A stretch of DNA of 64,000 nucleotides from Betaproteobacteria bacterium HGW-Betaproteobacteria-9 (GTDB lineage Bacteria; Pseudomonadota; Gammaproteobacteria; Burkholderiales; Burkholderiaceae_C): assembly GCA_002842215.1 (NCBI GenBank), contig PHCC01000011.1:62001-126000 (forward strand). The letters are read 5' to 3'. The first letter of the stretch is position 1; every line of letters begins with the position of its first letter. Below the pieces are notes generated by a model. The model searched no databases and was not told the DNA's origin. It saw nothing but the letters and a program-made list of their open reading frames with translations. The translations under genes were made by a program, and so were the position numbers. Below, piece by piece: positions 5,621 to 62,532 of the stretch.

Positions 5621-5711
5621 GCCCAGCCAGCACACACCGAAGAACCGGCTTCGCCGGGCCAAAGGTGTGGTCCCCCTGGGGGGAAGCCGCGCAGCGGCGC
5701 AGGGGGGAGAC
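5621..5711 (-). repeat. Intergenic hairpin repeat, copy 1
   Basis: Lies between the nitrilase-family gene stop (5716) and the kinase start. Contains the core hairpin CCGGC-TTC-GCCGG, an outer stem CACACC/GGTGTG, the box CCCCCTGGGGGG and the terminal run GGCGCAGGGGGG, which ends a few bases from the stop codon of the minus-strand hydrolase gene. Same element as the other ten copies in the window. Confidence 0.85.
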
Positions 5712-5715
5712 AGTT

Positions 5716-6522
5716 TCACAGGCGTCTGTGTTGTAGCGCTGGCAGCTGTTCGCGCACGCTGTGCAGACGCGCCATGTCCAGGTCGGCGAGCACGACGCCG
5801 GGGCCTTCGGCCTGCATCGCCATGACCTGGCCCCAGGGGTCGATGACCATGCTGTGGCCCCAGGTGCGGCGGCCGTTTTCGTGGTTGCCGCCCTGGGCGC
5901 TGGCGATGACGTAGGCCTGGTTTTCGATGGCGCGCGCGCGCAGCAGGACTTCCCAGTGGGCCTGGCCGGTGGTGTGGGTGAAGGCGGCGGGCACGAGCAG
6001 CAGGTCGGCCGCGAGCATGCGGTAGAGCTCACCGAAGCGCAGGTCGTAGCAGACGCTCATGCCGACGCGCCAGCTCTGGCCCTGACGCGAGGGACAGTCG
6101 AAGACGGTGGGGGTTTCGCCCGCGCGCAGCACGCTGGCCTCGTCGTAGCTCTCGCGGCCGTTGTCGTAGCGGAAGAGGTGGATCTTGTCGTAGCGGCTGA
6201 CGCATTCGCCCTTGGGCGAATAGACCAGCGAGGCGTTGGCGGCGTGGGTGGGGTCGTCGGTGGCCATGGGCAGGGTGCCGCCGACGATCCACAGCTTGAG
6301 TTCACGCGCGGTGTCGGACAGAAAGTCCTGCACCGTGCCCAGGCCCGGGGTTTCGGCCAGCAGCAGCTTGTCGGCGTCGTTCTGACCCATGAAGCAGAAG
6401 TACTCGGGCAACACGGCCAGCTCGGCACCGCAATGGGCGGCCTGGTCCAGCAGGGCGCGCGCTGCGCTGAGGTTGGCGTCGAGGCTGATGCCCGAGACCA
6501 TCTGGATGGCGGCGACTTTCAT
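5716..6522 (-). CDS. Carbon-nitrogen hydrolase (nitrilase superfamily, Nit-type)
   Basis: 268-residue amidase of the nitrilase superfamily. The catalytic triad is visible: Glu40 in LPEYF, Lys113 in RYDKIHLF and Cys158 in SVCYDLRF. The length and the DKIHLFRYD signature place it with the bacterial Nit1/Nit2-like group; the best characterised members hydrolyse deaminated glutathione or omega-amides, so a metabolite-repair role is a reasonable guess but the substrate is not determined by sequence. A good Shine-Dalgarno (AGGAG) precedes the ATG at 6522. It lies downstream of yhdP on the same strand, an arrangement common in beta- and gammaproteobacteria. Confidence 0.92.
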   Translation of the reverse strand: MKVAAIQMVSGISLDANLSAARALLDQAAHCGAELAVLPEYFCFMGQNDADKLLLAETPGLGTVQDFLSDTARELKLWIVGGTLPMATDDPTHAANASLVYSPKGECVSRYDKIHLFRYDNGRESYDEASVLRAGETPTVFDCPSRQGQSWRVGMSVCYDLRFGELYRMLAADLLLVPAAFTHTTGQAHWEVLLRARAIENQAYVIASAQGGNHENGRRTWGHSMVIDPWGQVMAMQAEGPGVVLADLDMARLHSVREQLPALQHRRL

Positions 6523-6607
6523 GAGAACTCCTTTTTTTGAACCCAGCTACACATCTGTTTGTACCGCAGTAACAGAAACCAGTCGCGCATCCGGCGCAAG
6601 TGCCCCA

Positions 6608-6692
6608 ACCCAGAACGCCGCGGAACCGGCTTTGCCGGGCCGCCAGCGTTGCCCCCGGGGGGGTGACGGCCGCAGGCCGGCGCGGGGGGGTC
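6608..6692 (-). repeat. Intergenic hairpin repeat, copy 2
   Basis: Directly follows the yhdP stop (the G-run on the plus strand touches the TCA at 6691-6693). Core CCGGC-TTT-GCCGG, outer stem AACGC/GCGTT, box CCCCCGGGGGG and a small GGCCGCAGGCC-type hairpin before the terminal G-run. The outer stem differs from copy 1 in both arms but still pairs. Confidence 0.85.
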
Positions 6693-9600
6693 ACTTCTTT
6701 TCCAGTTTTTCGACTTGCGGATCAGCCCAGCTGCCCGTGATGTGGAACTGCTGCGTGGTGGCACTCTGCAGCGGTTGGCGCAGCAGGAACTGGGCCAGGA
6801 AAGTGCCCAGCCCGACGGCGGGGTTGATGGCGGTGGCGATCAAGGCGGCGGTGCCGGCGTTGATTTCGGGCACGACGACGACCTTGAGGTCCTGCTGCTC
6901 GCGCGCGATGTCGGCGCTGCCTTCCATCAGCACGGCGGCGTTGATGCCCTTCATCTGCAGGTTGTTGGTGCGGGCCACGCCCTGCTCGATCGAGGCGTCG
7001 CCACGCACGAAGTCGAACGCAAAGCCTTCGGAAAACACATCGCGGAAATCGAGCACCAGGCGGCGCGGCAGCGCCTGCAGGCTGAGCACGCCGAGCAGCT
7101 TGGCGGCGCCGGGTTCGACCTTGAGGAACTGGCCGCTCTGCACGTCGGCCTTGAGCTGGCCGGAGAGGCTGGGGTAGTCCAGCGTCATGGGCGAGCCGAC
7201 CCAGGCGATGTGGCCGCCGATCTGGCCCTTGCCGCCACGCACGACGCCCGCGCGGCCAAAGCGCGTGAGCAGCAGGCCGGCGTCCTGGATGTCGAGCTTG
7301 AAGTTGAGCGCGGTGCGCCGCACGGTGCCCGCGCTGTTGTCGGGCAGGGCCCAGCTGCCGGTGGCGGAGAGCTGGGCTTCGGGGGTGTCGATGTTGAGCT
7401 TGGTGAGCTGCCATTCGCGGGTGCGCGCCGCGGTACCGCGGTTCTGGGCCACGATCTCCACGCGGGAGAGCCGCCGGTTGGAGAGCACGAGGTCTTCGAT
7501 CGCGATGTCCAGCGCGGGCATGCTGGTGGGCTGCTGCAGCAGTTGTTCGACGTCGGCGGCGGCGGCCGGTGCGAGCTTGAGATGGGCCAGGCGCGCGTAG
7601 ATGTTGCCGGCGTTGTTGTCGACCGGCTGGCGGTATTCGATATAGCCGTTGAGTTCGTCGGCGTCGACGTTGGCGCGCCACTGGCTGCCTTCGCGCGAAC
7701 CGCCGACCACCACGTTGGTGAAGCCGCGCCCGCTGACCACGAGCTGGCCGGCGCGCACCGCCAGGCTCGACGGCAGGTAGCCCAGGCTGGCGCTGTCGGC
7801 GGCGCCGGGCGACTGCACGCTGGCGCGCACGTCGGTGCCGGTGGTGGCGGTGAAGACCCGTTCCCAGGCGTCGGCGTCGATGCGCTGGAAGCGGATGTTG
7901 GCCTGCACACCGGTGGCCGGCTGGGTGACGGTTTCGCCGGCGTCGAGCCCGGCGGCCATGCTGCCGCGCAGCACGCGCGGTTCGCCGGCGGTGATGTCGC
8001 GCTCGTAGCGCAGGTCGGCCAGCGGCTGACCCGGCGGGCCGAGGGTGACGGCCAGGCTGTCGGTGCGCGCGACTTCGCCCGAGGGATCGGCCAGCACCGA
8101 GAGCACCCGGTTCTCGTAGCGCAGCGGCAGGCTGTCGGCGGCGGCCTTGGCCAGCGGCGCGGGCAGGTTGATGGCCAGGCCCTGCAGGGTGCTGGTGACC
8201 ACGAGCTCGGGCACGCCGGCGCGGAAGCCGAGTTCGGCGCTGTAGCTGGCGTTGCCGCTGGCCTGGCCAAACAGGCGCGAGACAAAGCCCAGCCCGCCTT
8301 CGCTCAGGCCCTGGGCGCTGGCGCTGCCCTGGCCGCGGAACTGGATGCGCGGCGTTCCCCGGGCCACGGGCACCATGCCGCCATCAAAGCGGAGATCGCC
8401 ACCGTAGACGCGGGCCTGGGCGCCGGCGATGCTGAAGCCGGTTTCGCTGAAGCTCAGACGCCCGGTGGTGCGCCCGAGCAGCGGGGCATCGGGCGTGATC
8501 TGCAGGTCGTTGCCGGCGAACTGCACGTTGCCCTGCACGGTGGTCTTGTCGACGTGTTCCAGCGGCAGCTGGAGCTTGAACTGCACCTGGGCCGGGCCGT
8601 TGATGGTGGCGCGCTCCAGCGCCTGGCCGGTGAAGCCGTTGACCGGCGAGCTGCGCACGAAGCCCAGCACCTCGGTGGCCGGGCCCTGGGCGCTGGCGGA
8701 CACGGTGAGCACGGGGGCGCGGACCAGATCGGCGATGGCCACTTCGGCCTGGCTCAGGCGCACGCCGGGCGCGCCGTCGAGCCCGGCGTCGAGCTGGCTC
8801 AGGCGCAAGGCGGCGCGGTCGAGCACGAGCTGGCCGTTGACGCCTTTGAGGGCGGGCCAGGCAGGGTCGCCCTCGCTCTGCAAGAAGGACGGCACGTAGG
8901 CGAAATCAACCGCCTTGAGTTGGGCGGTGATGCGGAATTCACCGCGCGCACCGGGCTGGTTGAAGGGCACGTCCCAGAGGTCGCCCTGGATGCGGAAGTC
9001 AACCGGGCCGACCACTCCGCCTTGGACGGCGTCGCGCACGTAGCGCTGCGCGTCCGGGCCGACCACCAGCGGCAGGTAGCGGTGCACGCGGGTGGCTTCG
9101 CCGCGGGTGAGGCGGGCGGTGAGGTCGAGCACGCCGGGGAAGCGCGCGTCCGAGGGGCTGGTGGCGGGGTTGCTGGTGTGCCAGTGCACGCTGGCCGTGC
9201 CTTCGGCGTCGGCGTTGGCCAGGCGCACCTTGTCCAGCCAGGCGTCGATGCGCTCGCCGGCGACGCGCCAGCGGGCCTCGGCCGCGAACCGGGTGAGCGG
9301 GATGCGCACCTCTTCAAACACGCCGGGCAGGTCGACCGAGCCGTCGGCGATCTGGAGACGCGCCTGGCCGCCGTCCTGGTTGAGCTCGACATCGGCGGTG
9401 AGGCCCTGGACGCCGGGCCGCCCGGGCAGTGGGCGCTGGCCGCCCACCGGGGCACGCGCCTCACCCGCCAGCGCGAGACCGAGCACGCGGCCTTTGGCGC
9501 GGTAGCGCTCGGGGCGCCAGGCGGCAGACGCGTCGCCGCTGCCCGCTTCGGCGCCGGCCGGTGCCACGCCTTCCCAGCTGGCGTCGAGGGCTTCGATGCG

Positions 9601-10857
9601 GCCAGCGGGCTGCAGGTTGGCCAGCAGGGTGCGGCTGGCTTCGGGCAGGGGCAGACGCGTGGCGACGGCGGCCAGCGCGGCCAACTCGATGCGGTCGGCG
9701 TTCAGACTGGTGTTGGCGGGCTGGTTGCCGCGCGGTGCCTGGTGGCGCAGCCGCAGTTGACCGCCCGGCCAGTCTTCGCCACCCTGGGTGCGAAAGCGCA
9801 GGTTGTCGCTGGCGATCTCGAAACCGGCGTCGTTCCATTGGGCACTCAGGCGGCCGTGCAGATCGGCCAGCGCGAGTTCGGGCAGCTTCGGCCCGAGCCG
9901 GGTGGCCACGTCCTGCAGCGCCAGGTCGGTGATGACGCCGGTGATGCGGCCCTTGGCGACATCGGCCCAGGCGCGCACGGCGCCCTGGCCGGAACGCACG
10001 TCGACCTGCCAGGCCGAGAGGTCGAGGTAGCCGCGCAGGCGCGAGACGTCGGCCTTGGGGAAGTCGGCGTAGAGTTCGCCGCTCCAGCTGTGCCAGGGCG
10101 TGGTTTCGCTGCCGCCGCGGATGAGGTCGAGCAGCGGCTCGCGCAGGCGGCCGCGCAGGCTGAAACGGTCGCCCCATTCGGAGCTCGGGGTGGCGTCGAG
10201 GCGGAACTGGTGGTTGCGGCCCCCGTTGCGGGCCACGAAATCGAGGGCCGTCAGGACCAGCGGCGGCTGCGCGCGCAGGTCGTCGGTCCAGCGCACGACA
10301 CCATTCTGGATCACGAACTCGGTCTGGGCGAAGAACCAGTCGGCGGCGGCGTTGTCGTCCGGCGCGGGCCCGGAGAAGTCCAGGCCGGCGACTTCGATGC
10401 GGCCTTCGGCGGTGCGCCGCACGTCGAGCACGGGCGAGGCGATCACCAGCTGTTCGAAGCCCAGGCGCCAGAGCGAAGGGACCGACACCGCGGCCTGCAC
10501 GCTGGGCAGGTGCAGGGCCTCGCGCCCCGCCGGGTCGAAGAGCCGGACATCGGTGAGCTCGAAGGCCGGCACCAGGCTGGGCAGGAATCCGGCGCTCCCG
10601 CCGTCGCCCGCTCCCGCCGTCCGGGCGCGGATGGCGCCGACCTTCACGGGTACCCCCACAGCCCGGGTGGCCCAGCTTTCCAGCTCAGGGCGCCAGTCGT
10701 TGATTCGCGGCACAATCCACAAATGCAAGGCGCCGACAGTGAGCGCAAACAGGCCCCAGGCGGCCAGCACCATCCACAACAGAAGCCGCGCGGTCACTGA
10801 AAGGGTTTGTTGGGGTGTTCTCGTGGCAGACGCGAGAGATGCCGGGCTTTGATTCAT
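6691..10857 (-). CDS. yhdP: YhdP-family AsmA-like envelope protein
   Basis: Giant protein of about 1388 residues. One transmembrane helix close to the N-terminus (residues 25-50) anchors it in the inner membrane and the rest is periplasmic. The repeating beta-strand-rich sequence with many short polar/hydrophobic alternations, the length, the central DUF3971-like part and the AsmA-like C-terminal part (NLQMKGINAAVLMEGSADI, then VVVPEINAGTAALIATAINPAVGLGTFLAQ) identify YhdP/TamB-superfamily. E. coli YhdP is one of the bridge-like proteins that move phospholipids to the outer membrane. The frame can start at GTG 10863 or ATG 10857; I use the ATG. Only 14 bases separate it from the divergent glnE start. 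Confidence 0.9.
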   Translation of the reverse strand: MNQSPASLASATRTPQQTLSVTARLLLWMVLAAWGLFALTVGALHLWIVPRINDWRPELESWATRAVGVPVKVGAIRARTAGAGDGGSAGFLPSLVPAFELTDVRLFDPAGREALHLPSVQAAVSVPSLWRLGFEQLVIASPVLDVRRTAEGRIEVAGLDFSGPAPDDNAAADWFFAQTEFVIQNGVVRWTDDLRAQPPLVLTALDFVARNGGRNHQFRLDATPSSEWGDRFSLRGRLREPLLDLIRGGSETTPWHSWSGELYADFPKADVSRLRGYLDLSAWQVDVRSGQGAVRAWADVAKGRITGVITDLALQDVATRLGPKLPELALADLHGRLSAQWNDAGFEIASDNLRFRTQGGEDWPGGQLRLRHQAPRGNQPANTSLNADRIELAALAAVATRLPLPEASRTLLANLQPAGRIEALDASWEGVAPAGAEAGSGDASAAWRPERYRAKGRVLGLALAGEARAPVGGQRPLPGRPGVQGLTADVELNQDGGQARLQIADGSVDLPGVFEEVRIPLTRFAAEARWRVAGERIDAWLDKVRLANADAEGTASVHWHTSNPATSPSDARFPGVLDLTARLTRGEATRVHRYLPLVVGPDAQRYVRDAVQGGVVGPVDFRIQGDLWDVPFNQPGARGEFRITAQLKAVDFAYVPSFLQSEGDPAWPALKGVNGQLVLDRAALRLSQLDAGLDGAPGVRLSQAEVAIADLVRAPVLTVSASAQGPATEVLGFVRSSPVNGFTGQALERATINGPAQVQFKLQLPLEHVDKTTVQGNVQFAGNDLQITPDAPLLGRTTGRLSFSETGFSIAGAQARVYGGDLRFDGGMVPVARGTPRIQFRGQGSASAQGLSEGGLGFVSRLFGQASGNASYSAELGFRAGVPELVVTSTLQGLAINLPAPLAKAAADSLPLRYENRVLSVLADPSGEVARTDSLAVTLGPPGQPLADLRYERDITAGEPRVLRGSMAAGLDAGETVTQPATGVQANIRFQRIDADAWERVFTATTGTDVRASVQSPGAADSASLGYLPSSLAVRAGQLVVSGRGFTNVVVGGSREGSQWRANVDADELNGYIEYRQPVDNNAGNIYARLAHLKLAPAAAADVEQLLQQPTSMPALDIAIEDLVLSNRRLSRVEIVAQNRGTAARTREWQLTKLNIDTPEAQLSATGSWALPDNSAGTVRRTALNFKLDIQDAGLLLTRFGRAGVVRGGKGQIGGHIAWVGSPMTLDYPSLSGQLKADVQSGQFLKVEPGAAKLLGVLSLQALPRRLVLDFRDVFSEGFAFDFVRGDASIEQGVARTNNLQMKGINAAVLMEGSADIAREQQDLKVVVVPEINAGTAALIATAINPAVGLGTFLAQFLLRQPLQSATTQQFHITGSWADPQVEKLEKK

Positions 10858-20689: not shown

Positions 20690-20815
20690 AGCACCCCCCG
20701 CGCCGTGAGATGGCACACCCCCCGCGCCGCTTCGCGTCACCCCCCTCCGGGGGGCGGCACTGGCCGTCTGGCAAAGCCAGCCCGGCGGTGCCCCTGGGTT
20801 GGCGCTGCTTCGTGC
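20690..20815 (+). repeat. Intergenic hairpin repeat, copy 3
   Basis: Follows the DUF3833 stop: C-run CCCCCC with GCGCCG (partly duplicated), GC-rich box CCCCCTCCGGGGGG, outer stem GGCAC/GTGCC and core CTGGC-AAA-GCCAG. This copy and copy 6 use CTGGC/GCCAG instead of CCGGC/GCCGG; the change is compensated in both arms. Confidence 0.85.
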
Positions 20816-22227: not shown

Positions 22228-22337
22228 GCCCCAGAATGCGGCGGAACCGGCTTTGCCGGGCCGCTCGCATTGCCCCCTTGAGGGGGTGACGCGCCCTTGG
22301 GCGCGGCGCAGGGGTGGGCCGATCCATCGCGGGGGGG
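22228..22337 (-). repeat. Intergenic hairpin repeat, copy 4
   Basis: Abuts the stop of the minus-strand GST gene at 22338. Core CCGGC-TTT-GCCGG, outer stem AATGCG/CGCATT, box CCCCCTTGAGGGGG, hairpin GCGCCCTTGGGCGC and terminal G-run. The plus-strand gene to the left ends at 22204 without its own copy. Confidence 0.85.
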
Positions 22338-22952
22338 TCAATCAGGCTTTGTGTCCACAAAGCTCTGACGCAACGCCAGCTTCTCGCCGAGCTTGGCCAG
22401 GTTGGGATACGGCGTTCGCCAGTCGATCGCCGGGAAGCGGAAGTCCAGGTAACCCAGCGCGCAGCCCACCGCCACATCGGACAGGCTGAAGTGGATGCCG
22501 GAGCAGAAGGGCTTCTCACCCAGCCCCTGGCTCATGGACTTGAGGGCACCCTGCACCTTGTCCATCTGGCGATCGATCCAGGCGCCGCAGCGCTGTTCTT
22601 CGCTGCGGCCGGTCCAGGTGGCTTCAAGCCGCGCCAGGATCGAAGCGTCCAGCACGCCATCGGCCAGCGCCTCCCAGGTCTTGACCTCGGCGCGCTCGCG
22701 GCCCGATGTCGGGATCAGCTTGCCCACCGGGGACAGCGTGTCCAGGTATTCGACGATCACGCGCGAGTCAAACACCGCCTCGCCGCCTTCCATGACCAGG
22801 CAAGGCACCTTGCCCAGCGGATTGGACGCGGCAATCTTCGTGTCGGCGGACCACACGTCTTCCGGCAAGAACTGGTAATCCAGCTTCTTCTCGGCCATGA
22901 CGATGCGAACTTTGCGCACGTAGGGGCTGGTGATGGCGCCGATGAGTTTCAT
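22338..22952 (-). CDS. Glutathione S-transferase family protein
   Basis: 204 residues. N-terminal thioredoxin-like domain (MKLIGAITSPYVRKVRIVMAEK, SPYVRK at the glutathione site, then KVPCLVMEGGEAVFDSRVIVEYL with the cis-Pro VP and the ES/DS glutamyl-binding motif) and an all-helical C-terminal domain with SLSDVAVGCALGYLDFR. It belongs to the bacterial YibF-like group whose substrates are unknown. ATG 22952 chosen; the frame is open upstream but without similarity. Divergent from purB, about 170 bases apart. Confidence 0.9.
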   Translation of the reverse strand: MKLIGAITSPYVRKVRIVMAEKKLDYQFLPEDVWSADTKIAASNPLGKVPCLVMEGGEAVFDSRVIVEYLDTLSPVGKLIPTSGRERAEVKTWEALADGVLDASILARLEATWTGRSEEQRCGAWIDRQMDKVQGALKSMSQGLGEKPFCSGIHFSLSDVAVGCALGYLDFRFPAIDWRTPYPNLAKLGEKLALRQSFVDTKPD

Positions 22953-25542: not shown

Positions 25543-25626
25543 GCTCTCCCCGAAGCGCCTGCGGCGCCTCCCCCAGGGGCAACACCAGCGGCCCGGCAAA
25601 GCCGGTTCCGCGGTGTTCTGGGTTTA
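25543..25626 (+). repeat. Intergenic hairpin repeat, copy 5
   Basis: Follows the stop of the diiron-protein gene. Hairpin GCGCCTGCGGCGC region, box CCCCCAGGGG, outer stem AACACC/GGTGTT, middle stem GCGG/CCGC and core CCGGC-AAA-GCCGG, ending CTGGG. Confidence 0.85.
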
Positions 25627-27603: not shown

Positions 27604-27785
27604 GGGAAACACCCCCGCGCCGCTTCGCGCGCCTTGCAGGCCGCGGCATCGTCGGAGCCGAAGCCTCTTCGTCCCGTCCAAGCCTGCGCAGGCAGGCTTG
27701 GAGCCGCGGTCCTCAGCCCCCCTCAAGGGGGACGACACTGTCCGTCTGGCTAAGCCAGCCCGGCGGTGCCTCTGGGTGAGGTTGC
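27604..27785 (+). repeat. Intergenic hairpin repeat, copy 6, expanded
   Basis: Starts after the stop of the membrane-protein gene with ACACCCCCGCGCCGCTTCGCGCG, but about 100 extra bases are inserted before the usual second half (CCCCCCTCAAGGGGG, outer stem ACAC..GGTG, core CTGGC-TAA-GCCAG, CTCTGGG). The insert carries a perfect 11-base-pair hairpin at 27677-27702. Confidence 0.75.
27677..27702. other. Perfect 11-bp inverted repeat inside repeat copy 6
   Basis: TCCAAGCCTGC and GCAGGCTTGGA flank a four-base loop. No T-run on either strand. Located in the extra segment that distinguishes this repeat copy from the others. Confidence 0.7.
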
Positions 27786-30181: not shown

Positions 30182-30484
30182 TCAGTGCACCGCCATCGGC
30201 TCGATTTCTGCCTCGATCCGGCTGGCCATTGCCCGCTCGGCCAGTTTCAGGTCGTACATCTGCTGGAGGTTGAGCCACGAGTGGGCATCACCACCAAAGT
30301 AGCGGGCCAGACGCAGGGCCGTATCCGGCGTCACACCACGCCGCTCCAGCACGATGTCATTGACCCGCCCTGCCGGCACATGCAATGCCTTGGAAAGCGC
30401 GTTGGAGCTCATGCCCAGCGGTTTCAAAAAATCCTCGCGCAAAACCTCGCCGGGGTGCACCGGCCGCATTCCGTTCTTGATCAT
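30182..30484 (-). CDS. higA: HigA-type antitoxin (XRE family)
   Basis: 100 residues with the HigA addiction-module pattern: RPVHPGEVLREDFLKPLGMSSNALSKALHVPAGRVNDIVLERRGVTPDTALRLARYFG, an HTH_XRE DNA-binding domain that neutralises HigB and autoregulates. Start ATG 30484 with strong Shine-Dalgarno AAGGAGG. It lies 25 bases downstream of higB, giving the usual toxin-first order. The gene is convergent with moaC. A degenerate second copy lies at 31125-31393. Confidence 0.94.
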   Translation of the reverse strand: MIKNGMRPVHPGEVLREDFLKPLGMSSNALSKALHVPAGRVNDIVLERRGVTPDTALRLARYFGGDAHSWLNLQQMYDLKLAERAMASRIEAEIEPMAVH

Positions 30485-30509
30485 GCTGCCCTCCTTGGGA
30501 TGAATAAAG

Positions 30510-30788
30510 TCAGTGGTCGTCAACGATCTCCACATCGGCTGGACCTTCGGCGGTCCAAACAAAGCACACCCGCCATTGTTTGTTGATGCGCACGCTGTGC
30601 TGCCCGACACGGTCACCCGACAAGGCTTCAAGGTGGTTGCCCGGCGGAGACCTCAGAAATTCCAGCGTGGTGGCTGCGGCCAACTGGGTCAGCTTGCGCT
30701 CAGCCACGTCCTTAATGTTGGCAAAACGCCGGGACTTGCCGGTCTCGTAAAGCGCCTGCGTTTCACCACACTTGAACGACTGGATCAT
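30510..30788 (-). CDS. higB: HigB-type toxin (RelE/ParE superfamily mRNA interferase)
   Basis: 92 residues, the normal HigB size. Signature: MIQSFKCGETQALYETGK at the N-terminus, LEALSGDRVGQHSVRINKQWRVCFVW in the middle/C-terminal beta-sheet with the basic residues needed for ribosome-dependent mRNA cleavage, ending VEIVDDH. First gene of a two-gene operon with higA. The AT-rich region before its start (30789-30850) probably holds the autoregulated promoter. Confidence 0.94.
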   Translation of the reverse strand: MIQSFKCGETQALYETGKSRRFANIKDVAERKLTQLAAATTLEFLRSPPGNHLEALSGDRVGQHSVRINKQWRVCFVWTAEGPADVEIVDDH

Positions 30789-30879
30789 GGAATGTCATTT
30801 TATAACGCATACCGCATACCGGTAAGCGGCAAATCTGTTTTTAGTATCTGGTGACATGCGAATAAAACCAACGGTCAAA

Positions 30880-31068
30880 CCCTTGTGCCACTCAACAACC
30901 GAATGCACCGGCCAGACCGGCGTGGAAAGGGGAGCCATCACCGCCTGCAGTGTGGTCCTGCTCACGATCTACGACATGTGCAAGGCGGTGGACCGGGGCA
31001 TCGTCATTGGCGGGGTGCGGTTGATTGAGAAGCGGGGCGGGAAGAGCGGGCATTTCGTGACGAGTTGA
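30880..31068 (+). pseudogene. Diverged duplicate of the moaC 3' end
   Basis: The translation of this stretch ([20 protein letters not shown], then [20 protein letters not shown], ending [10 protein letters not shown]) repeats the last about 60 residues of moaC with a handful of substitutions, for example M-to-R in GVEM. An open frame begins at ATG 30856 but lacks the first two thirds of the enzyme. It is the first part of a tandem duplication that continues into a decayed higA. Confidence 0.9.
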
Positions 31069-31124
31069 TTGCTCCGCTTTTGAGGCGTCGGTTCCACCCG
31101 GCATCAGCGATCAAAGCATCACCA

Positions 31125-31393
31125 TCAAGGCGATTTCAACCTCGATCCGGCTGACCATTGTCTGCCCGGCCAACTTCAGGCTGTACATCTGATGAAGATT
31201 GAGCCACGACTGAGCATCGCCATCAAAAAATGCGGGGCAAGCGCCAGCTGTGTCCGACGTCGCACCACGTCATTCAAGCACAATATGTCATTGACCTGAC
31301 CCGCCGGCACATGCACCGCCATCGATAGTGCGTTGGCACACATGCACAGCGGTTTCAAAATGAATCCTTCTGCAGAACCGTGCCGGGAGCCTC
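31125..31393 (-). pseudogene. Decayed duplicate of higA
   Basis: The DNA is clearly similar to higA over its length. On the minus strand the fragment KPLCMCANALSMAVHVPAGQVNDI is readable and matches the active HigA stretch KPLGMSSNALSKALHVPAG, but small deletions (for example around 31262-31285) break the frame and the normal start region is lost. Same order and orientation relative to the moaC fragment as in the intact copy, so both belong to one duplicated unit. No second higB is seen. Confidence 0.85.
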
Positions 31394-31608
31394 CAATGCA
31401 TAGGCATCTCCTTGCCCAGTCCGCGCAAGAGAAGTGCTTCCTATGTCACCGCACACCCATTTCCCTTGACTCAAGTCCATACAAGTCGCACCCCGGACGA
31501 TCATAGGAAAGCTCCGTCCTGCGTATCAATTCTGCTTTGCCTAGCGGGCGAACTGCAATAATTTACTTCAAGCGCAACTTTATCCAGCGACATCTTTCAC
31601 TGGACAAA
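31394..31608. other. Gene-free spacer after the decayed toxin-antitoxin copy
   Basis: No open frame, RNA or clear repeat is recognised. Base composition is already lower in GC than the flanking chromosome on the left. It marks the transition from the duplicated moaC/higA unit to the AT-richer surface-modification locus. Confidence 0.5.
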
Positions 31609-36285: not shown

Positions 36286-36387
36286 GTCAGTGATCTATAT
36301 GCAACGAAAATCAAATACAGCACCACTACATCCGTGAATTTTGTTGAATTCCAGGGGGGCGTGTTTTTATACCATCCTAGATGAGGA

Positions 36388-37788
36388 CTAATTGACATAA
36401 AAATGTATCATTGGCACCTTGGTGCGCTCGAACTTCGCACGTGAACTTTCATTCGAAAACACCGGCGAGTGATCTCCTACAACGACAACTTCAAGCCCCT
36501 TCAAATTTTCTGAATCGATCAACCTGGACAAGCCTTCGAAAAACTGAACATGGAGGTTTTGATAATTGCAGAGCTGCTCCTCGTACACCTCCTTAAAAAC
36601 ACCATGGCAAAGCTCCTCGCGATACATTGCAATATCTCGCCGATCATAGGGTACATGTGAGTTGAGAGTTAGCCAATATACGAACGCTTTATCATTTTGC
36701 AATTTTTGAGCAACAACTTCGACCAAATCGCGATCGCAATAACCGGGGAAGGAATGACAATCAGAAACAGCAAGAGGCAGCGCTTCCCTGAATATTAACT
36801 CGCTAAATCCTACCTCAGGCCACCATTGGAGCCGATGATACATCACACCATTAGCCCCATGGACTCCAACCGTCCGGTATCCTTTTTTTGCCATCAACAT
36901 GGGCAAGCATTCACCCACCGCTTCAGACGTTAATTTTCTGAAATTCAATCTCGTGGGGATCAATCCACAAATCTCGCGCAATTCACCAGCGACGGTGGCT
37001 CCAATTGCGTGAATGCCTCCCACCTCTAAATTGTTTACGCGCGGGCTCATGCGCAAGCTTTGAATCTGACTCTCCAAAACTGCTTGATCTCTCGGAAATC
37101 CCCACGACTCGGCGATAATGAACAAGATGCGAGAAGATGTAGGCACATCCTTCCAGATCGTTCGCGCAGCTGAGGCATTTTTAATTGGAACGTATTCTGC
37201 ATCCTCTGCCCCGTTGCCGATTACAACTCCCTTATTTACATGCATTGCTTCTCTCGTGAAGTGCATCGCGCTGCCAAAAATCAGATTTTTCCTTTCTGCA
37301 AAAGTCGGGGAAAAAAATGTGTTGTGCTCAGCGGAAAGTACCCATTGGTACTGAAACAGCCCGACAACGACAAGGAGCTGAAGGAGATATATTTTTTTAG
37401 ATGGCTTTTCTGTACAGATGCGAGCAGCCATCCAGGTAAATACCAATGCCAAAGTGAGGGCAAGAAAAAAGCCCCACAAATATTCAGCCCTGGCCTGAAA
37501 GAGAAAACCGGCCATATCCACAACCTGCACAGCTTCGAACAGGATGAATATCGATGCCATGCCGAGCATGATTTCCAGAATAACAGCGACAACCAACACA
37601 GCCGCACCAAGCCTCTTCATGCCGACAGATATCAGAACAAACGAAGCCAGCAATTCAGCACTAAACAAATGCCTTTTGTATCCAAAATGCAATGAAAGGG
37701 CTTGAAACCCCATGCTTATCACCACAAAAAGAAGCAGCGTCACAAACAACTGACGAATACCGCTCGTATTTGGCGACTCCATATTCAT
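36388..37788 (-). CDS. Alkaline-phosphatase-superfamily membrane phosphotransferase-like protein B
   Basis: 466 residues, the AT-richer paralogue of the protein at 34876-36285. Shared blocks include the membrane part (SLHFGYKRHLFSAEL), ILFIIAESWG with the metal-ligand Glu, GATVAGELREICGLIPTRLNF with the conserved Thr, HSFPGYCDRDL, VYWLTLNSHVPYDRRD and VVVGDHSPVF. All putative catalytic residues are intact. The ATG uses the last base of the stop of the upstream pilin accessory gene, so translation is coupled to it; this ties the enzyme to type IV pilin biology. Function in decorating pilin or a surface glycan is inferred. Confidence 0.8.
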   Translation of the reverse strand: MNMESPNTSGIRQLFVTLLLFVVISMGFQALSLHFGYKRHLFSAELLASFVLISVGMKRLGAAVLVVAVILEIMLGMASIFILFEAVQVVDMAGFLFQARAEYLWGFFLALTLALVFTWMAARICTEKPSKKIYLLQLLVVVGLFQYQWVLSAEHNTFFSPTFAERKNLIFGSAMHFTREAMHVNKGVVIGNGAEDAEYVPIKNASAARTIWKDVPTSSRILFIIAESWGFPRDQAVLESQIQSLRMSPRVNNLEVGGIHAIGATVAGELREICGLIPTRLNFRKLTSEAVGECLPMLMAKKGYRTVGVHGANGVMYHRLQWWPEVGFSELIFREALPLAVSDCHSFPGYCDRDLVEVVAQKLQNDKAFVYWLTLNSHVPYDRRDIAMYREELCHGVFKEVYEEQLCNYQNLHVQFFEGLSRLIDSENLKGLEVVVVGDHSPVFSNESSRAKFERTKVPMIHFYVN

Positions 37789-38579
37789 CAGAAGAACCCA
37801 TCGTAGGGCAAAAATCCAAGAATTTCTCCTTTGACGTTCAGTACAGCCACCGCGTCCTTTCGGGCATTCACGGGAAGAAATTTCGCGGATTTATTCTCAA
37901 TGTTCAATCTATCGAATAGTTGCTTTATTTCAATTGACGCACTGGGGTATTGCCGGCCAAGCTCTTCTATTGGCCTTCCTGCTGTGACAGCCTGCGTCCG
38001 CTCATGCGGCCCGTACGGTATCCAGAATTTGGGTCTCTGACTGGTGTCAATACCATCAAAGATGGCAGTGGCCAATGCATTGGATCGTTCCGCCCCGGAT
38101 TCAGATCTTCGCAGCGCAACGGTGGCGGGCCCAAAGAGCGGCAATGCTTGAAATTCCGGGAGTGCTTCTTTCAACTCTTCGGAAACCACCTCTGATTGCG
38201 AAATCACTCGAAACCTGTCAAACTCAAATACCAATGCCACTGGGCGAGCTTCACGTACCGTATTCAATCCATAGGCAAGCGCCAACATTTGCAAGACTGC
38301 GATTATGAAAATGTCGCGCCGCAGGTGCTGAATGCCTTTGGCTTTATTGAAAACGGCGAAAGTCAGAACCGGGCCCATGACCACATCTACCGCCATAACC
38401 AGCAATAGGAGCTCTGTACCACCAGCCAGATAGCGAAACTCGCCAGGGTACCAGACACTAAACACGAGCAACGCCACAACGCCTGCGATTGCAAGAGAGC
38501 CTATGAGATGCAGGCCCGCGGCGAGAATGCGATCTTTGAGTGAAATTGAGGCAAACAAGTTTGGACTTTTCGACGACAT
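37788..38579 (-). CDS. Type IV pilin accessory protein (TfpX/TfpZ-like)
   Basis: 263 residues: a long hydrophobic N-terminal region with about three helices (27-50, 55-80, 90-107) followed by a soluble, probably periplasmic domain. SLKDRILAAGLHLIGSLAIAG with LVFSVWYPGEFRYLAGG and VDVVMGPVLTFAVFNKAKG is the signature of the TfpX/TfpZ family described beside pilA in Pseudomonas and other bacteria, where these proteins tune pilin assembly or retraction. It lies 41 bases downstream of the second pilin gene on the same strand. Confidence 0.86.
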   Translation of the reverse strand: MSSKSPNLFASISLKDRILAAGLHLIGSLAIAGVVALLVFSVWYPGEFRYLAGGTELLLLVMAVDVVMGPVLTFAVFNKAKGIQHLRRDIFIIAVLQMLALAYGLNTVREARPVALVFEFDRFRVISQSEVVSEELKEALPEFQALPLFGPATVALRRSESGAERSNALATAIFDGIDTSQRPKFWIPYGPHERTQAVTAGRPIEELGRQYPSASIEIKQLFDRLNIENKSAKFLPVNARKDAVAVLNVKGEILGFLPYDGFF

Positions 38580-38620
38580 TGTTCAGTTGTGCTTCTTCTT
38601 TTTCATAGGGTAACGAAGCA

Positions 38621-39178
38621 CTACCGACATTCTGACGGTGCAAATTTAGCTGGGAGCGTCCCTAGCGTGCCAGACATATTTCTCGATATTGCGAGCAGAC
38701 GCGATTCAGACTGACAGCTCCAATCAATTGCGCCGGTGACACCTGCTGCAAATGAGCTACCCAACCTCACCACATCTGCCGATCCAGACCCATACTTTAT
38801 CCAAGGCGAAAGGACCAACGAGTCATTTGTTCCGGCAACAATGGGGCCAACCGCTTCGTTGAACACCAATGTTAGCTCGCCCTGAGTGGCGCCCTCAGCC
38901 CCTTCCATGCGAATGCTGGCCACATATTTGCTGGCAGTGCCAACGCTGCCCGCCTGCGCATTCCATGCCGACGCTGCGCTAGATAAATCAGTCTGTGTTC
39001 CCACACTGACGCCAACTTGTGTTTTTGCATCTCCAGCGAGCACTATCCCTTCACTTATCCGGGCACGAACCGTGTAATCTTGATACGCTGGCAGTGCCAA
39101 TGCTGCCAATATGCCAATAATAGCTACGACGATCATCAACTCAATGAGCGTGAATCCATGCACAAGGCTCGTCTTCAT
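38621..39178 (-). CDS. Type IV pilin, second copy
   Basis: 185 residues. Prepilin leader MKTSLVHG with cleavage before Phe9 by PilD, conserved Glu5 of the mature protein (residue 13) and the hydrophobic alpha-1 helix ([22 protein letters not shown]). The C-terminal disulfide pair is visible in WSCQSE...PSEC. Similar to the pilin at 39452-40027 but with a divergent surface region and lower GC. ATG 39178 (Shine-Dalgarno GGAAAG). It has its own sigma-54 promoter at 39244-39259 and is probably transcribed with the accessory and phosphotransferase-like genes downstream. Confidence 0.93.
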
Positions 39179-39243
39179 GGTGATCTTTCCGTTCAGATTG
39201 CGATTGGGTTTTAATGATTGGGCATGCTTCACATCAGTTGTTT

Positions 39244-39259
39244 AGCAGTTATTGTGCCA
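39244..39259 (-). promoter_or_regulatory. Sigma-54 promoter of the second pilin gene
   Basis: On the minus strand: TGGCACAATAACTGCT. The GG of the -24 box and the GC of the -12 box have the exact 10-base spacing required for RpoN. It lies 66 bases before the ATG. Pilin genes are classically activated by PilR with sigma-54. Confidence 0.8.
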
Positions 39260-39359
39260 GTCACATACCGTGATTAATTTCACGCCGTTTTCGCAAACTG
39301 GCATTTTTTGTCTTTTTTTGGTTTAAACCTCCCATTTTTTGCAACTCTTGATCTGTATT

Positions 39360-39390
39360 AGGAAAAAAAAGGGCACCCGAAGGTGCCCTT
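39360..39390 (-). terminator. Intrinsic terminator after the first pilin gene
   Basis: Stem AAGGGCACC/GGTGCCCTT (39369-39390) with a four-base loop, followed on the minus strand by a run of eight to nine T (39362-39370). It separates the two pilin transcription units. Confidence 0.93.
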
Positions 39391-39451
39391 ATTCTGAATT
39401 CGGAAATTCCCTACATTCACATCAATGCACTTGACATTTGAATGCCGGATT

Positions 39452-40027
<576 letters not shown>

Positions 40028-40072
40028 GAGAAAAACTCCTTGGGGGTTGTGGGACGGATACGCGCTCTACAG

Positions 40073-40088
40073 AGCAGGGTCCGTGCCA
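40073..40088 (-). promoter_or_regulatory. Sigma-54 promoter of the major pilin gene
   Basis: On the minus strand: TGGCACGGACCCTGCT, a near-consensus RpoN site (TGGCACG-N4-YTGC). The predicted transcript starts about 35 bases before the pilin ATG. Confidence 0.85.
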
Positions 40089-40213
40089 ACCGGAAATGGC
40101 CTGGGTTCTGCGGCCTTCTTCACGCTTCACCCGGTGCGTGTGACGATTTGTGTCCAGTGATGCCTTTTGCTACTGACAATTTTTGTCACCCACCCCCGGG
40201 GTGACGTTTTTTG

Positions 40214-53266: not shown

Positions 53267-53352
53267 AACCCCCCCTGCGCCGTTGCGCGACTTCCCCCAG
53301 GGGGGGACCACGCCCTTGGCCCTGCAAAGCCGGTTCTTCGGCGTGGGCTGGG
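53267..53352 (+). repeat. Intergenic hairpin repeat, copy 7
   Basis: C-run, GCGCCGTTGCGC hairpin, box CCCCCAGGGGGGG, outer stem CCACGCC/GGCGTGG and an imperfect core (CCTGC-AAA-GCCGG). The only copy that does not follow a stop codon: it lies between the divergent recA and marR genes. Confidence 0.85.
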
Positions 53353-53870: not shown

Positions 53871-54038
53871 CCGGCCGCATGGCGCGCGCTCTGGCGCCCC
53901 ATGAGTCGGGGGTTTCTCCCGCAACCGACCCTGCTGGCGAGGCCTAAAATGACTGAGGAGACCATGCCGCCGCCAGCCGGTTGTGCGGCGACAGTGCCCC
54001 CACAACAGGCCGCCCGACCGGCCGAAAAGGAAACCCGC

Positions 54039-54713
54039 ATGCGCATCCTGATTGCCGAAGACGACCAGGTTCTGGCCGATGGTCTGCTGCGCAGTCTTCG
54101 CGCGGCCGGCGCGGCCGTCGATCACGTGGCCAGCGGCAGCGAAGCCGACGCCGCGCTGATGACCAACAACGAGTTTGACCTGCTGATCCTGGATCTGGGT
54201 CTGCCGAAAATGCATGGTCTGGAGGTGCTCAAACGCCTGCGCTCGCGCGGCTCGGCGCTGCCGGTGCTGATCCTGACCGCTGCCGACAGCATCGAAGAAC
54301 GCGTCAAGGGCCTGGACTACGGCGCCGACGACTACATGGCCAAACCGTTCAGCCTGCAGGAACTCGAAGCCCGCGTGCGCGCCCTCACGCGCCGCGGCAT
54401 GGGCGGCGCCAGTTCCACCATCAAACACGGCCCGCTGGTGTACGACCAAGCCGGCCGCGTGGCCACCATCGACGGCAAGATGGTCGAACTCTCGGCGCGC
54501 GAACTCGGCCTGCTCGAAGTGTTGCTGCAGCGCGCCGGGCGGCTGGTGAGCAAGGACCAGCTGGTCGAGCGCCTGTGCGAATGGGGCGAAGAGGTGAGCA
54601 ACAACGCCATCGAGGTCTACATCCACCGCCTGCGCAAGAAGATCGAGAAGGGCCCGATCCGCATCGCCACCGTGCGCGGCTTGGGCTACTGCCTTGAAAA
54701 GATCCCTGGATGA
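54039..54713 (+). CDS. OmpR-family response regulator (TctD/QseB-like)
   Basis: 224 residues. Receiver domain with DD at 8-9, phosphoacceptor Asp52 in LILDLGLPKMHG and Lys in DDYMAKPFSL; C-terminal winged helix (about 125-222) with ELSARELGLLEVLLQRAGRLVSKDQL and NAIEVYIHRLRKKI. The EVSNNAIEVYIHRLRKK pattern is that of the TctD/QseB/PmrA group. ATG 54039 has a Shine-Dalgarno (AAAAGGA). Its kinase follows at 54852 with a hairpin repeat between them. Confidence 0.94.
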   Translation: MRILIAEDDQVLADGLLRSLRAAGAAVDHVASGSEADAALMTNNEFDLLILDLGLPKMHGLEVLKRLRSRGSALPVLILTAADSIEERVKGLDYGADDYMAKPFSLQELEARVRALTRRGMGGASSTIKHGPLVYDQAGRVATIDGKMVELSARELGLLEVLLQRAGRLVSKDQLVERLCEWGEEVSNNAIEVYIHRLRKKIEKGPIRIATVRGLGYCLEKIPG

Positions 54714-54812
54714 AGGCTCCCCCCGCGCCGGGCTTGCAGCCCGTCACCCCCCCAGGGGGCAGCACTGGTGGCCCGGCAAAGCCGGCTCCACGGTGCTCTG
54801 GGTTGGAACCCG
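54714..54812 (+). repeat. Intergenic hairpin repeat, copy 8
   Basis: Begins right after the response-regulator stop. C-run, CGGGCTTGCAGCCCG hairpin, box CCCCCCCAGGGGG, outer stem AGCAC/GTGCT, middle stem GTGG/CCAC, core CCGGC-AAA-GCCGG and CTCTGGG. It lies inside the regulator-kinase operon. Confidence 0.85.
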
Positions 54813-54851: not shown

Positions 54852-56327
54852 ATGTCCGACCCCAAAAAGCACGACAACGGCCAGATGTCGTTCGGGCTGT
54901 TCCAGCGCGAGCAGCGCAGCCTGTTTGGCGAGATCCTGGACTGGATGCTCACGCCGCTGCTGCTGCTGTGGCCGCTGTCGCTGGCGCTGACCTGGTTCGT
55001 GGCGCAGGGGATTGCGAGCAAGCCGTTTGACCGTGCGCTGGAGTTCAACCTGCAAGCGCTCACGCAATTCGTCGTGAACCAGAACGAAAAGGTGAGCTTC
55101 AACCTGACGCCGCAGGCGCGCGACCTGCTGCGTGCCGACGACAGCGATCTCGTCTACTACCAGGTGCTGGACCCCCGCGGCGAGCTCATCAGTGGCGAGG
55201 GTGACTTTCCCCTGCCGCAGGACAACGAAACCCCCGAACCGGGGCGGGTGATGCTGCGCGACGACATCGTGCGCGGTGATGAAGTGCGTGTGGCCTACGC
55301 CTGGCTCTCGCGCAACCAGGACCCCAAACGCCTGGTGCTGATGCAGGTGGCCGAAACCAAGGGAAAACGCTCCACACTGGCCACCGAAATCATCAAGGGT
55401 GTGATGGTGCCGCAGTTCGTGATCCTGCCGCTGGCGGTGCTGCTGGTGTGGATGGCGCTGGTACGCGGCATCCGCCCGCTCAACGAACTGGAGCAGCGCA
55501 TCCGCGCGCGCAAACCCGACGACCTGAGCCCGATCGAAGAGTCTTTCATTCCCCAGGAAGTGGCGCCCTTGGTGTCGTCCATCAACGACCTGCTGACGCG
55601 GCTGAAGACCTCGCTGAGCACGCAGAAACGCTTCCTGGCCGACGCAGCCCACCAGCTCAAGACACCCCTGGCGGGGCTGCGCATGCAGGCCGAGCTGGCG
55701 CAACGCGAGAGCGATCCGCAGGAAATCCGCGGCTCGCTGCAGCAGATCGCTCGCTCCAGCACCCGCGCCACCCACACCGTCAACCAGTTGCTGTCACTCG
55801 CCCGCGCCGAAACCACCGGCCGCACGCTGCCGACCGCGCGCATCGACCTCGCCCGGCTCGTGAAGGGGGTCGTGCAGGACTCCGTTCCACGGGCGCTGGA
55901 GCACGGGATCGACCTGGGTTACGAAGGGCCCGAAGAGATGCCCGCGGATTGCCTGATGGAAGGCAATCCGACCCTGCTGCAGGAGATGACGCGCAACCTG
56001 GTGGACAACGCCATCAACTATTCCGGCCGGGATGGCGTCGTCACTGCGCGTGTGCTGCTGGACCGCTTCAGCGGCGTGATGATCCTGCAGGTCGAGGACA
56101 ACGGGCCGGGCATCCCGGAAAACGAGCGCGCACTCGTGCTGCAGCCGTTCTACCGCGCGCTGGGCACCAACGTTGACGGCTCGGGCCTGGGTCTGGCCAT
56201 CGTGCACGAGATCGCCCAGCAACACGGCGCCGTGGTGTCCATGGAGGACGCCCAGCCGGACCGCCCCCACCGGGGTCTACGCGCATCGGTGCGTTTTGCG
56301 CCCCGCAAGTCCCCGGACAAGGACTGA
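54852..56327 (+). CDS. Sensor histidine kinase, TctE-like
   Basis: 491 residues. Transmembrane helices at about 33-52 and 185-204 enclose a periplasmic domain of about 130 residues (2CSK_N type); a short HAMP-like linker, HisKA with His267 in DAAHQLKTPLAGL, and HATPase_c with NLVDNAINYS, VEDNGPGIP and GSGLGLAIV. TctE-type kinases with TctD-type regulators often control uptake of carboxylates, but no transporter is encoded nearby, so the signal is unknown. ATG 54852, 138 bases after the regulator stop because of the intervening repeat. Confidence 0.94.
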   Translation: MSDPKKHDNGQMSFGLFQREQRSLFGEILDWMLTPLLLLWPLSLALTWFVAQGIASKPFDRALEFNLQALTQFVVNQNEKVSFNLTPQARDLLRADDSDLVYYQVLDPRGELISGEGDFPLPQDNETPEPGRVMLRDDIVRGDEVRVAYAWLSRNQDPKRLVLMQVAETKGKRSTLATEIIKGVMVPQFVILPLAVLLVWMALVRGIRPLNELEQRIRARKPDDLSPIEESFIPQEVAPLVSSINDLLTRLKTSLSTQKRFLADAAHQLKTPLAGLRMQAELAQRESDPQEIRGSLQQIARSSTRATHTVNQLLSLARAETTGRTLPTARIDLARLVKGVVQDSVPRALEHGIDLGYEGPEEMPADCLMEGNPTLLQEMTRNLVDNAINYSGRDGVVTARVLLDRFSGVMILQVEDNGPGIPENERALVLQPFYRALGTNVDGSGLGLAIVHEIAQQHGAVVSMEDAQPDRPHRGLRASVRFAPRKSPDKD

Positions 56328-60640: not shown

Positions 60641-60730
60641 CCCCCCTGCGCCGCTTCGCGTCTTCCCCCCTGAGGGGGGACAACACCAGCGCCCCGGCAA
60701 AGCCGGTTGCGCGGTGTTCTGGGCTGCAGG
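60641..60730 (+). repeat. Intergenic hairpin repeat, copy 9
   Basis: Begins at the SET-gene stop. C-run, GCGCCGCTTCGCG hairpin, box CCCCCCTGAGGGGGG, outer stem AACACC/GGTGTT, middle stem GCGC/GCGC, core CCGGC-AAA-GCCGG, then CTGGG. One of the most regular copies. Confidence 0.88.
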
Positions 60731-61558: not shown

Positions 61559-62313
61559 GGGTAGTGATCGGGTTGCTGGTGCTGGCCAACGCGGGCTATT
61601 TCGCCTGGACCCAGGGGTACCTGGGCGCCCTGGGCCTGAAACCGGTGGTGCAATCCGAGCCCGAGCGGTTGCGATCCCAGATCAAGCCCGAGGGCTTGCG
61701 CCTGCTCAACGCCCCCCGGCCTGCCGAGGCACCATCGAACGACGCCACGGCACCGACGGCTACGCCCCCATCACCACCCGCTCCAGCGCCAGAGGCAACG
61801 GCAGCGACCACGGTTGCAGCCGCCGAAGTCCCTGCCAAGCCCCAGACCGACAACACGCCCGCCACCGCTTGTTGGCAAGCCGCCATCTACTCGCCCGCCC
61901 AGGCCGATGTGTTGCGCAGTGCCCTGCAGCAGCTGGGCCTGCCCGACGGCGCCTGGCGGCTCAATGAAGTTCTCAGCGGAGGCCGCTGGATTGTCTACAT
62001 GGGACGCTACAACGACGAGCAGATGGCGCGCAAAAAGACCGAACTGCGTGACATCAAGATCGAATTCCGGGAGGTCACGGTGCCAGCACTCGGACGCGGT
62101 CTGGCGCTGGGCACCTTCTCCAGCGAAGCCTCGGCCGAGCAGGCCCTGCAGGACCTGAGCAAAAAGGGCGTGCGCACCGCGCGCGTGGCGCTGGAGCGGC
62201 CCGAAGGCACCAACTTTGTCCTGCGCCTGCCCGCCGTCACGGCGGCGCAGCGCGCTCAGGTGGCGGGTCTGGGTGCTGCACTGGCCGGCAAATCCCTGCA
62301 AGCCTGCGAGTAA
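61552..62313 (+). CDS. Membrane-anchored SPOR-like domain protein
   Basis: 253 residues: one N-terminal transmembrane helix (3-20), a Pro/Ala/Thr-rich linker (about 55-105) and a C-terminal region with two short RNP-like beta-alpha-beta repeats (RWIVYMGRYNDEQMARKKTELRDIKIEF; GLALGTFSSEASAEQALQDLSKKGVRTARV), which fit the SPOR peptidoglycan-binding fold. SPOR proteins bind denuded glycan strands at division septa. The sequence similarity is only at the pattern level. Starts inside birA (seven-base overlap). Confidence 0.75.
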   Translation: MLRVVIGLLVLANAGYFAWTQGYLGALGLKPVVQSEPERLRSQIKPEGLRLLNAPRPAEAPSNDATAPTATPPSPPAPAPEATAATTVAAAEVPAKPQTDNTPATACWQAAIYSPAQADVLRSALQQLGLPDGAWRLNEVLSGGRWIVYMGRYNDEQMARKKTELRDIKIEFREVTVPALGRGLALGTFSSEASAEQALQDLSKKGVRTARVALERPEGTNFVLRLPAVTAAQRAQVAGLGAALAGKSLQACE

Positions 62314-62317
62314 ACAC

Positions 62318-62380
62318 CCCCCTGCGCCGCTGCGTGGCTTCCCCTCTGTGGCAAAGGCGTGGGCTGGCGTTGCATTTCGC
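62318..62380 (+). repeat. Intergenic hairpin repeat, copy 10, deleted form
   Basis: Follows the SPOR-gene stop with ACACCCCCCTGCGCCGC and CCCCTCTGTGG, then jumps to GGCAAAGGCGTGGGCTGG: the core and part of the outer stem are missing. It appears to be a decayed copy. Confidence 0.7.
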
Positions 62381-62389
62381 GCCCCAGAA

Positions 62390-62428
62390 ACGAAAAACGC
62401 CGGATGCACTTTTCAGTGCAACCGGCGC
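62390..62428 (-). terminator. Probable intrinsic terminator of gap
   Basis: GCCGG-TGCACT paired with AGTGCA-CCGGC around a TTTC/GAAA loop (62399-62426), with one unpaired A on each side, followed on the minus strand by GTTTTTCG. It lies about 105 bases beyond the gap stop, after repeat copy 11, and could also halt plus-strand transcription. Confidence 0.65.
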
Positions 62429-62444
62429 GAATTGCCTTCTCCCA

Positions 62445-62532
62445 GCGATCACCGCGGAACCGGCTTCGCCGTGCCGCAGGTGATGCCCCCTTGAGGGGGT
62501 GACGCGCCCTTAGGCGCGGCGCGGGGGTGACT
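62445..62532 (-). repeat. Intergenic hairpin repeat, copy 11
   Basis: Ends two bases from the gap stop. Outer stem ATCACC/GGTGAT, core CCGGC-TTC-GCCG, box CCCCCTTGAGGGGG, hairpin GCGCCCTTAGGCGC and terminal G-run. Confidence 0.85.

Follow-up and report, generated by a model that had tools for sequence, protein, structure and literature searches.

The stretch of DNA considered here (the window) comprises 64,000 nt of contig PHCC01000011.1 (positions 62,001 to 126,000) of Betaproteobacteria bacterium HGW-Betaproteobacteria-9 and harbors eleven copies, ten of them full and one truncated, of a repeat of ~80–90 nt, extending from a C-run through CTGGG. A stop-adjacent, unusually polar location of this element is strongly supported. 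The element can be safely classed as a dispersed repeat resembling the repetitive extragenic palindromes (REP) and the Beta-proteobacterial repeat element (BRE). Our best guess concerning its function is that of an RNA module behind stop codons: the repeat would be kept in the sense orientation, and its RNA, as part of the 3′ untranslated region (3′-UTR), would influence mRNA decay or the termination of translation. To this reading, based on sequence comparisons, we assign a probability of roughly one half. The element mostly follows the direction of the gene, which suggests work in the mRNA and not merely stray mobile DNA; we infer that RNA is the active form and that its effect is exerted on decay or translation.

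From 5′ to 3′, the element consists of a C-run, a sequence-variable GC hairpin, a CCCCC/GGGGG box, a long hairpin and CTGGG. The long hairpin is formed by an outer stem (e.g., AACACC/GGTGTT), an inner stem (GCGG/CCGC) and the core CCGGC-AAA-GCCGG. The genome contains 173 occurrences of the core CCGGCAAAGCCGG vs. one of the reversed pattern, i.e., more than by chance; a strict core-plus-flank pattern was detected 170 times vs. once for the reversed control. The ten full window copies served to build a covariance model termed R1 (60 positions, 15 pairs), so the scores of these copies (62–77 bits) are high by construction. In the own genome (5.26 Mb, 57 contigs) R1 yielded at least 150 matches, the weakest of those listed scoring 56 bits; per-genome R1 counts of 150, 91, 18 or 13 are to be read as lower bounds throughout.

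The polarity was assessed in 137 own-genome copies from 57 sources (143 matches minus two overlap duplicates and the four weakest), drawn from stretches picked largely for holding copies. Genes were called with a simple codon-model finder made for this analysis, which misses the open reading frames (ORFs) at ~30–40 kb of the window. The C-run side faces a gene stop in 126 of these copies; thus, the polar placement claimed in the original prediction was borne out, together with a preference for stop codons. Between co-directional genes, 89 copies are in sense vs. 6 in antisense (binomial p = 5e-20, the copies being treated as independent); the other copies are situated in convergent (34) or divergent (3) gaps, have a right neighbor that is unknown (3), or lie inside a called gene (2). 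Distances were measurable in 31 of the 34 convergent gaps; in 27 of these, the C-run end lies closer to its own stop. A called stop is situated 17–54 nt ahead of the model start in 116 copies; among them, the C-run starts at a median of 4 nt past the stop, and the distance does not exceed 15 nt in 109. For 14 copies, no sense stop was called at the usual distance; re-inspection revealed a likely sense ORF for one of them.

In twelve other genomes, three of them from another family of the order (f4), 54 copies were scored (58 matches less two duplicates and two weak overlaps). A sense stop is found upstream of 48 of them (within 60 nt in 36), and co-directional gaps hold 30 sense vs. 5 antisense copies; the remaining copies include tandem followers, the 5 antisense ones and one inside a called gene. 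The stretches not picked for copies were the window’s contig (14 copies in 164 kb) and those of the genomes G333 and G148. The 200-kb stretches from two more genera, not picked for copies, featured a sense stop for 18 of 22 copies (within 60 nt for 16) and a co-directional ratio of 9 to 1. Six stretches of Pigmentiphaga displayed a sense stop for 13 of 16 copies, just 8 of them within 60 nt, a co-directional ratio of 7 to 1 and two copies between divergent genes. As a separate observation, the 98 element-bearing genes of the own genome end with TGA in 66% and TAG in 17% of cases vs. 82–92% and 3–9%, respectively, in other genes, depending on the gap class; their coding score is also higher than that of other genes.

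The second line of evidence is the pairing of the stems. In the ten window copies, 94.7% of the stem cells pair, and a two-sided change is present in 9 of the 15 pairs. Among 140 distinct genome copies, whose alignment was fitted to the model and hence favors pairing, 96.9% of the stem cells pair vs. 82.1% in shuffles; the number of double-change cells amounts to 309 vs. a shuffle mean of 76.9, and the covariation score is 0.442 vs. 0.149 in shuffles and at most 0.134 in slid controls. The stems were thus found to covary, as originally noticed. Ten comparisons of orthologous gene ends in congeners gave 21 double-compensated, 4 one-sided and 6 broken pairs, the two comparisons for GAPDH displaying the same changes. 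Some of the differences represent the swap of a whole hairpin: behind the SET gene, six compensated pairs distinguish the outer stems, and the first hairpin and box are almost unchanged. A closed cloverleaf formed via pairing of the C-run with the downstream GGGTTGGG was also considered; it was not retained in the alignment fold.

The third line of evidence is the turnover of the element in congeners. Comparison of 14 own sites on the window’s contig with five congeners revealed 10 present and 26 absent copies among the scored cells (4 cells were unscored, including the GAPDH of G005, which carries a copy; three sites were without an alignable ortholog). By eye, two of the 26 absences looked like decayed copies. 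The site of element 8 (see the list below) is without an R1 match at the ortholog in four of the five congeners. Within the genus, GAPDH was readable at 29 loci, counting the own one (a 30th locus was cut), and the element stands behind the stop at 8 of them. For the CN_hydrolase gene, inspection of 79 readable relatives by eye revealed the element in a single one, Hydrogenophaga sp. A37. Also by eye, the response regulator–kinase spacing is ~20 nt in G025 and the SET–biotin-ligase spacing is ~9 nt in G001, the element being absent from both. In view of the presence–absence pattern, the GAPDH loci and the close gene spacing, the element should reside, at least at some places, in a presumably transcribed 3′-UTR, fitting between closely spaced genes and coming and going. 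The suggestion of a palindromic mobile repeat is supported by these gains and losses at orthologous gene ends.

Copies of the element are gained and lost quickly, and the kept ones are mostly in sense, directly behind stops. If the element operates as RNA, strong hairpins would fold at once in the mRNA of the upstream gene where the reading frame ends, and the upstream message would be the most likely target of their effect; they would protect it from 3′-to-5′ exonucleases and, being located within ~15 nt of the stop, may slow ribosome release. The output of the upstream gene would then shift relative to its operon neighbors. A more far-reaching version of this reading is possible, although we hold it tentatively: a clade-wide, orientation-selected 3′-UTR module, i.e., a mobile repeat turned into a plug-in mRNA end which, in sense and behind at least 100 stops per genome, would couple translation termination to mRNA decay and rebalance operon genes.

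REPs and bacterial interspersed mosaic elements (BIMEs) offer a partial parallel: like the element, they are high-copy extragenic palindromes, mainly downstream of genes and in some cases within 15 nt of the stop. According to the accessible parts of the sources, REPs of E. coli within 15 nt of the stop stall ribosomes, as reported by others (PMC12306157), and mRNA stabilization by REPs has been reported (PMC2267715). In contrast to REP/BIME units of 20–40 bp, the element is ~80–90 nt long, contains several stems and is strongly sense-polar. The usual debate on REP-like repeats is whether they represent selfish DNA or regulators; the strong gene-orientation bias of the element makes this question cheaply testable, and the congeners constitute natural pairs, i.e., the same gene in the same neighborhood with and without the element.

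The own genome is judged to belong to Hydrogenophaga, going by the closest named relative: a window protein has its nearest named match in Hydrogenophaga sp. A37 (89% identical), in a comparison from which the own record may have been excluded. A scan of further genomes with the covariance model, recommended originally, revealed R1 matches in all 36 genomes of the genus searched (own included); in the family, matches at E <= 0.001 were found in 206 of 299 genomes, representing 102 of 126 genera. None of 24 genomes belonging to the order but to different families has an R1 match, and a broader sample of 399 genomes from the order contained 12 with matches, including three from the family f4. 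Among 18 genomes reached via named loci (24 of 30 such loci were examined further), 12 match R1. There were at least 150 matches each in Hydrogenophaga sp. A37 and Pigmentiphaga humi, 88 in Polaromonas, 82 in Pseudacidovorax, 40 in Paracidovorax, 39 in Variovorax, 35 in Rubrivivax, 14 in Acidovorax soli, 2 in Roseateles and 1 each in Comamonas, Curvibacter and Rhodoferax; R1 matches were absent from the examined genomes of Burkholderia, Cupriavidus, Pandoraea, Duganella, Methylibium and Delftia sp. PS-11. Six plasmid records match, five of them being Comamonadaceae by name, and phage records gave no match to the element. No Rfam family matches the window at the gathering score; at E up to 1, eight loci gave a single match (P11, 21.8 bits, under its cut-off), away from the element. 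Tandem arrays occur as well: the locus L236 (other family) contains 4.3 head-to-tail units with a 124-bp period at 2435–2970, and L252 and L254 harbor 2–3 head-to-tail element copies. The L236 array is a possible marker for strain typing.

The element likely corresponds to the BRE (Hot et al. 2011, PMC3110155), the two having been compared by description and not by letters. Among the titles listed in the literature search, most subscription journals lying outside it, the BRE paper alone describes a repeat of this sort from these bacteria. As far as the accessible part of that paper goes, BREs are ~75–91 bp long, GC-rich (~64–79%), usually intergenic and present in Comamonadaceae (Polaromonas, Acidovorax, Rhodoferax, Delftia) and Bordetella; they are arranged in tandem at some loci and vary in number and between relatives, and none of the 13 Bordetella loci of its Table 3 lies between divergent genes (PMC3110155). 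The BRE and the element are alike in length and in the tandem copies. At the same time, the 60-nt R1 matches have a GC content of 65–83%, some exceeding the range of the BRE; BREs number 1–29 per genome vs. at least 150 elements in the own genome; and the stop polarity and paired stems, both features of the element, are absent from the BRE description as far as it was accessible. The R1 counts given above for Polaromonas, Acidovorax soli, Rhodoferax and Delftia sp. PS-11 pertain to strains other than those of the BRE paper. A BRE was described at lexA in three Bordetella species (PMC3110155); four lexA loci (L230–L233) were without an R1 match, their genomes not being established as Bordetella. 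According to the part of the 2011 paper at hand, the authors of the BRE left it without a function (PMC3110155), so the element would offer this repeat family a possible role, along with a model to search for it.

A number of observations weigh against the reading of the element as a 3′-UTR RNA module. The stems contain 71 G–T vs. 16 A–C mismatches, the direction expected of sense RNA, but 51 stem from one subfamily pair; without it, the G–U vs. A–C ratio is 20 vs. 13 (p = 0.30, not significant), so the excess was rejected as proof of RNA. Moreover, some of the paired changes divide subfamilies, so the claim of the original prediction that selection for RNA (or cruciform) structure follows from the compensatory changes is not supported as worded. 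Template switching is another way in which palindromes can be corrected, and subfamily replacement or palindrome correction may be behind the paired changes. The presence of the element, varying as much as it does (10 present, 26 absent in five congeners), is too variable for any single site to be essential, and R1 matches are lacking from 93 of the 299 family genomes. Eleven of the 137 own-genome copies are without a stop on the C-run side, and the polarity as such could result from the insertion process. According to the accessible part of the BRE paper, one B. pertussis BRE gives rise to an ~80-nt RNA from the strand opposite to the flanking genes, and some BREs are situated wholly inside coding sequences (PMC3110155); if the BRE and the element are the same, both facts are a misfit with a simple sense reading.

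The best surviving alternative, which we regard as somewhat unlikely, is a largely neutral mobile palindrome, its insertion machinery favoring gene ends and one orientation (e.g., via exposed single strands at transcript ends), so that the polarity reflects targeting. It agrees with the presence–absence differences between congeners, the two decayed-looking sites, the tandem arrays and the nested and duplicated copies, as well as with copy numbers ranging from no match to at least 150 within one family. On the other hand, pairing is mostly retained at orthologous sites, no target motif was seen by eye at the empty sites, and a link to Y1 transposases is lacking. The REP-associated tyrosine transposase (RAYT) is not supported as the mover, since the copy number is unlinked to Y1 transposase genes: across the 299 genomes, it does not follow PF01797 (the tables were compared by reading, with no fitted statistic). 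Thus, the genomes G333, G308, G147 and G077 contain 112, 68, 67 and 66 pattern copies, respectively, and no PF01797 match; G103 and G110 each have 3 PF01797 matches and lack R1 matches; G072 has 14 PF01797 matches, no pattern copy and 17 R1 matches. The own genome possesses one Y1_Tnp gene (L037 18791–19081), and R1 matches are absent from the 13 kb preceding it and the 0.9 kb following it. The GTAG/CGTC tag marking the REP superfamily was found at the foot of the long hairpin in 2 of 136 copies; CGTC located within 6 nt ahead of the C-box in 61 of 136 copies was read as part of the first hairpin.

Quite improbable is a terminator or attenuator lacking a U-tract, i.e., a Rho-dependent end with a protective hairpin or a partial terminator in operons. 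The strong stop-adjacent hairpins and the C-run close to the stop would fit it, and a hairpin just past the stop codon is shared with Rho-independent terminators. Unlike the latter, the element has no U-tract: the consensus of 137 copies contains no T-run behind the hairpin, in agreement with the initial statement that these are not classical terminators, and is G-rich (GTTGGG-like) downstream of it. The element can also stand ahead of a U-tract hairpin, which is clear in four of the eight GAPDH loci with the element and probable in two more (by eye); in convergent gaps, this hairpin may serve the other gene. U-tract hairpins were detected at 6 of 31 convergent and 5 of 84 co-directional element ends and at 7 of 26 and 28 of 211 other ends, respectively, in a scan of low power (8 of 26 on the reverse strand). 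That they are not commoner at element ends is compatible with a U-tract-less terminator; with rates lacking a clear difference and a weak scan, U-tract hairpins as the true transcript end were rejected. The element is not simply the terminator, because it can occur upstream of a U-tract hairpin or between genes that are almost adjacent in a relative. Its median distance to the next gene start (~54 nt) and the structured region with G-runs, unlike a rut site, also speak against this possibility.

A DNA-level element (a gyrase or nucleoid-protein site, or a cruciform) where positive supercoiling arises behind genes is very improbable: REPs are sites for gyrase and the integration host factor (PMC2267715) and are located mostly downstream of genes (PMC3733652), as far as the accessible parts of these sources go, but a palindrome has no evident need of a sense orientation and the polarity is 89 to 6.

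Regarding the window itself, eleven copies had been counted originally; ten of them are full elements, and that at 62318 is truncated, lacks the core and is without an R1 match. By reading, the C-runs begin ~0–10 nt past a gene stop at 10 of the 11 places, so the claim of ten copies just behind stop codons, with the C-run end first, stands. In the full copies, the 5′-side order is stop codon, 0–10 nt, C-run, except for the copy at 53267, where no gene precedes. All nine boxes of the window with at least 5 C, 0–4 nt and at least 5 G are inside elements. The copies are as follows:

Element 1, 5621..5708, minus strand: after the stop of the CN_hydrolase gene (5716–6522, minus), next gene co-directional (R1, 68.5 bits; Pfam; gene calls).
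Element 2, 6608..6690, minus strand: directly behind the stop of the yhdP gene (6691–10773, minus) (R1, 75.2 bits; Pfam YhdP).
Element 3, 20693..20800, plus strand: CTGGC/GCCAG subfamily, after the DUF3833 gene, with an additional partial 5′ copy (R1, 72.0 bits).
Element 4, 22228..22337, minus strand: after the GST gene (22338–22952, minus), in a convergent gap (R1, 76.8 bits).
Element 5, 25543..25626, plus strand: after the metallo-beta-lactamase-fold (ODP) gene, in a convergent gap (R1, 72.7 bits).
Element 6, 27611..27778, plus strand: an ~85-nt second palindromic repeat between the first hairpin and the box (R1, 63.9 bits for 27715–27774).
Element 7, 53268..53352, plus strand: the exception, between recA (start side) and the MarR gene, no sense stop upstream (R1, 62.3 bits).
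Element 8, 54717..54804, plus strand: between the response regulator (53994–54713, plus) and histidine kinase (54852–56327, plus) genes (R1, 76.5 bits).
Element 9, 60641..60726, plus strand: between the SET-domain and biotin-ligase genes, beginning directly behind TGA (R1, 76.3 bits).
Element 10, 62317..62369, plus strand: truncated, C-run and first hairpin, CCGGC/GCCGG core lost, after the gene 61564–62313 (plus) (by sequence).
Element 11, 62440..62529, minus strand: after GAPDH (62534–63532, minus), followed by a U-tract hairpin (R1, 70.9 bits).

Element 6 (the 27604 copy) begins ~9 nt past the stop. The starts of both recA and the MarR gene face element 7; not being at a gene end, it still has a counterpart in the congener G005, which carries a copy at the equivalent place (L189 5413–5472). 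Some elements carry, in either orientation, a nested copy of the second palindromic repeat of ~85 nt (GCCTTGCAGGCCGC...GAGCCGCGGTCCTCAGC; window 27625–27712; L064, L050, L049, L045, and, identified by eye, L072 and L184), the start motif of which is also present away from elements. Long ORFs at ~30200–40200 of the window (e.g., 31609–33102, 33099–34511 and 36388–37788) are uncalled by the genome-trained codon model, and there is no R1 match there; this region may represent an acquired island.

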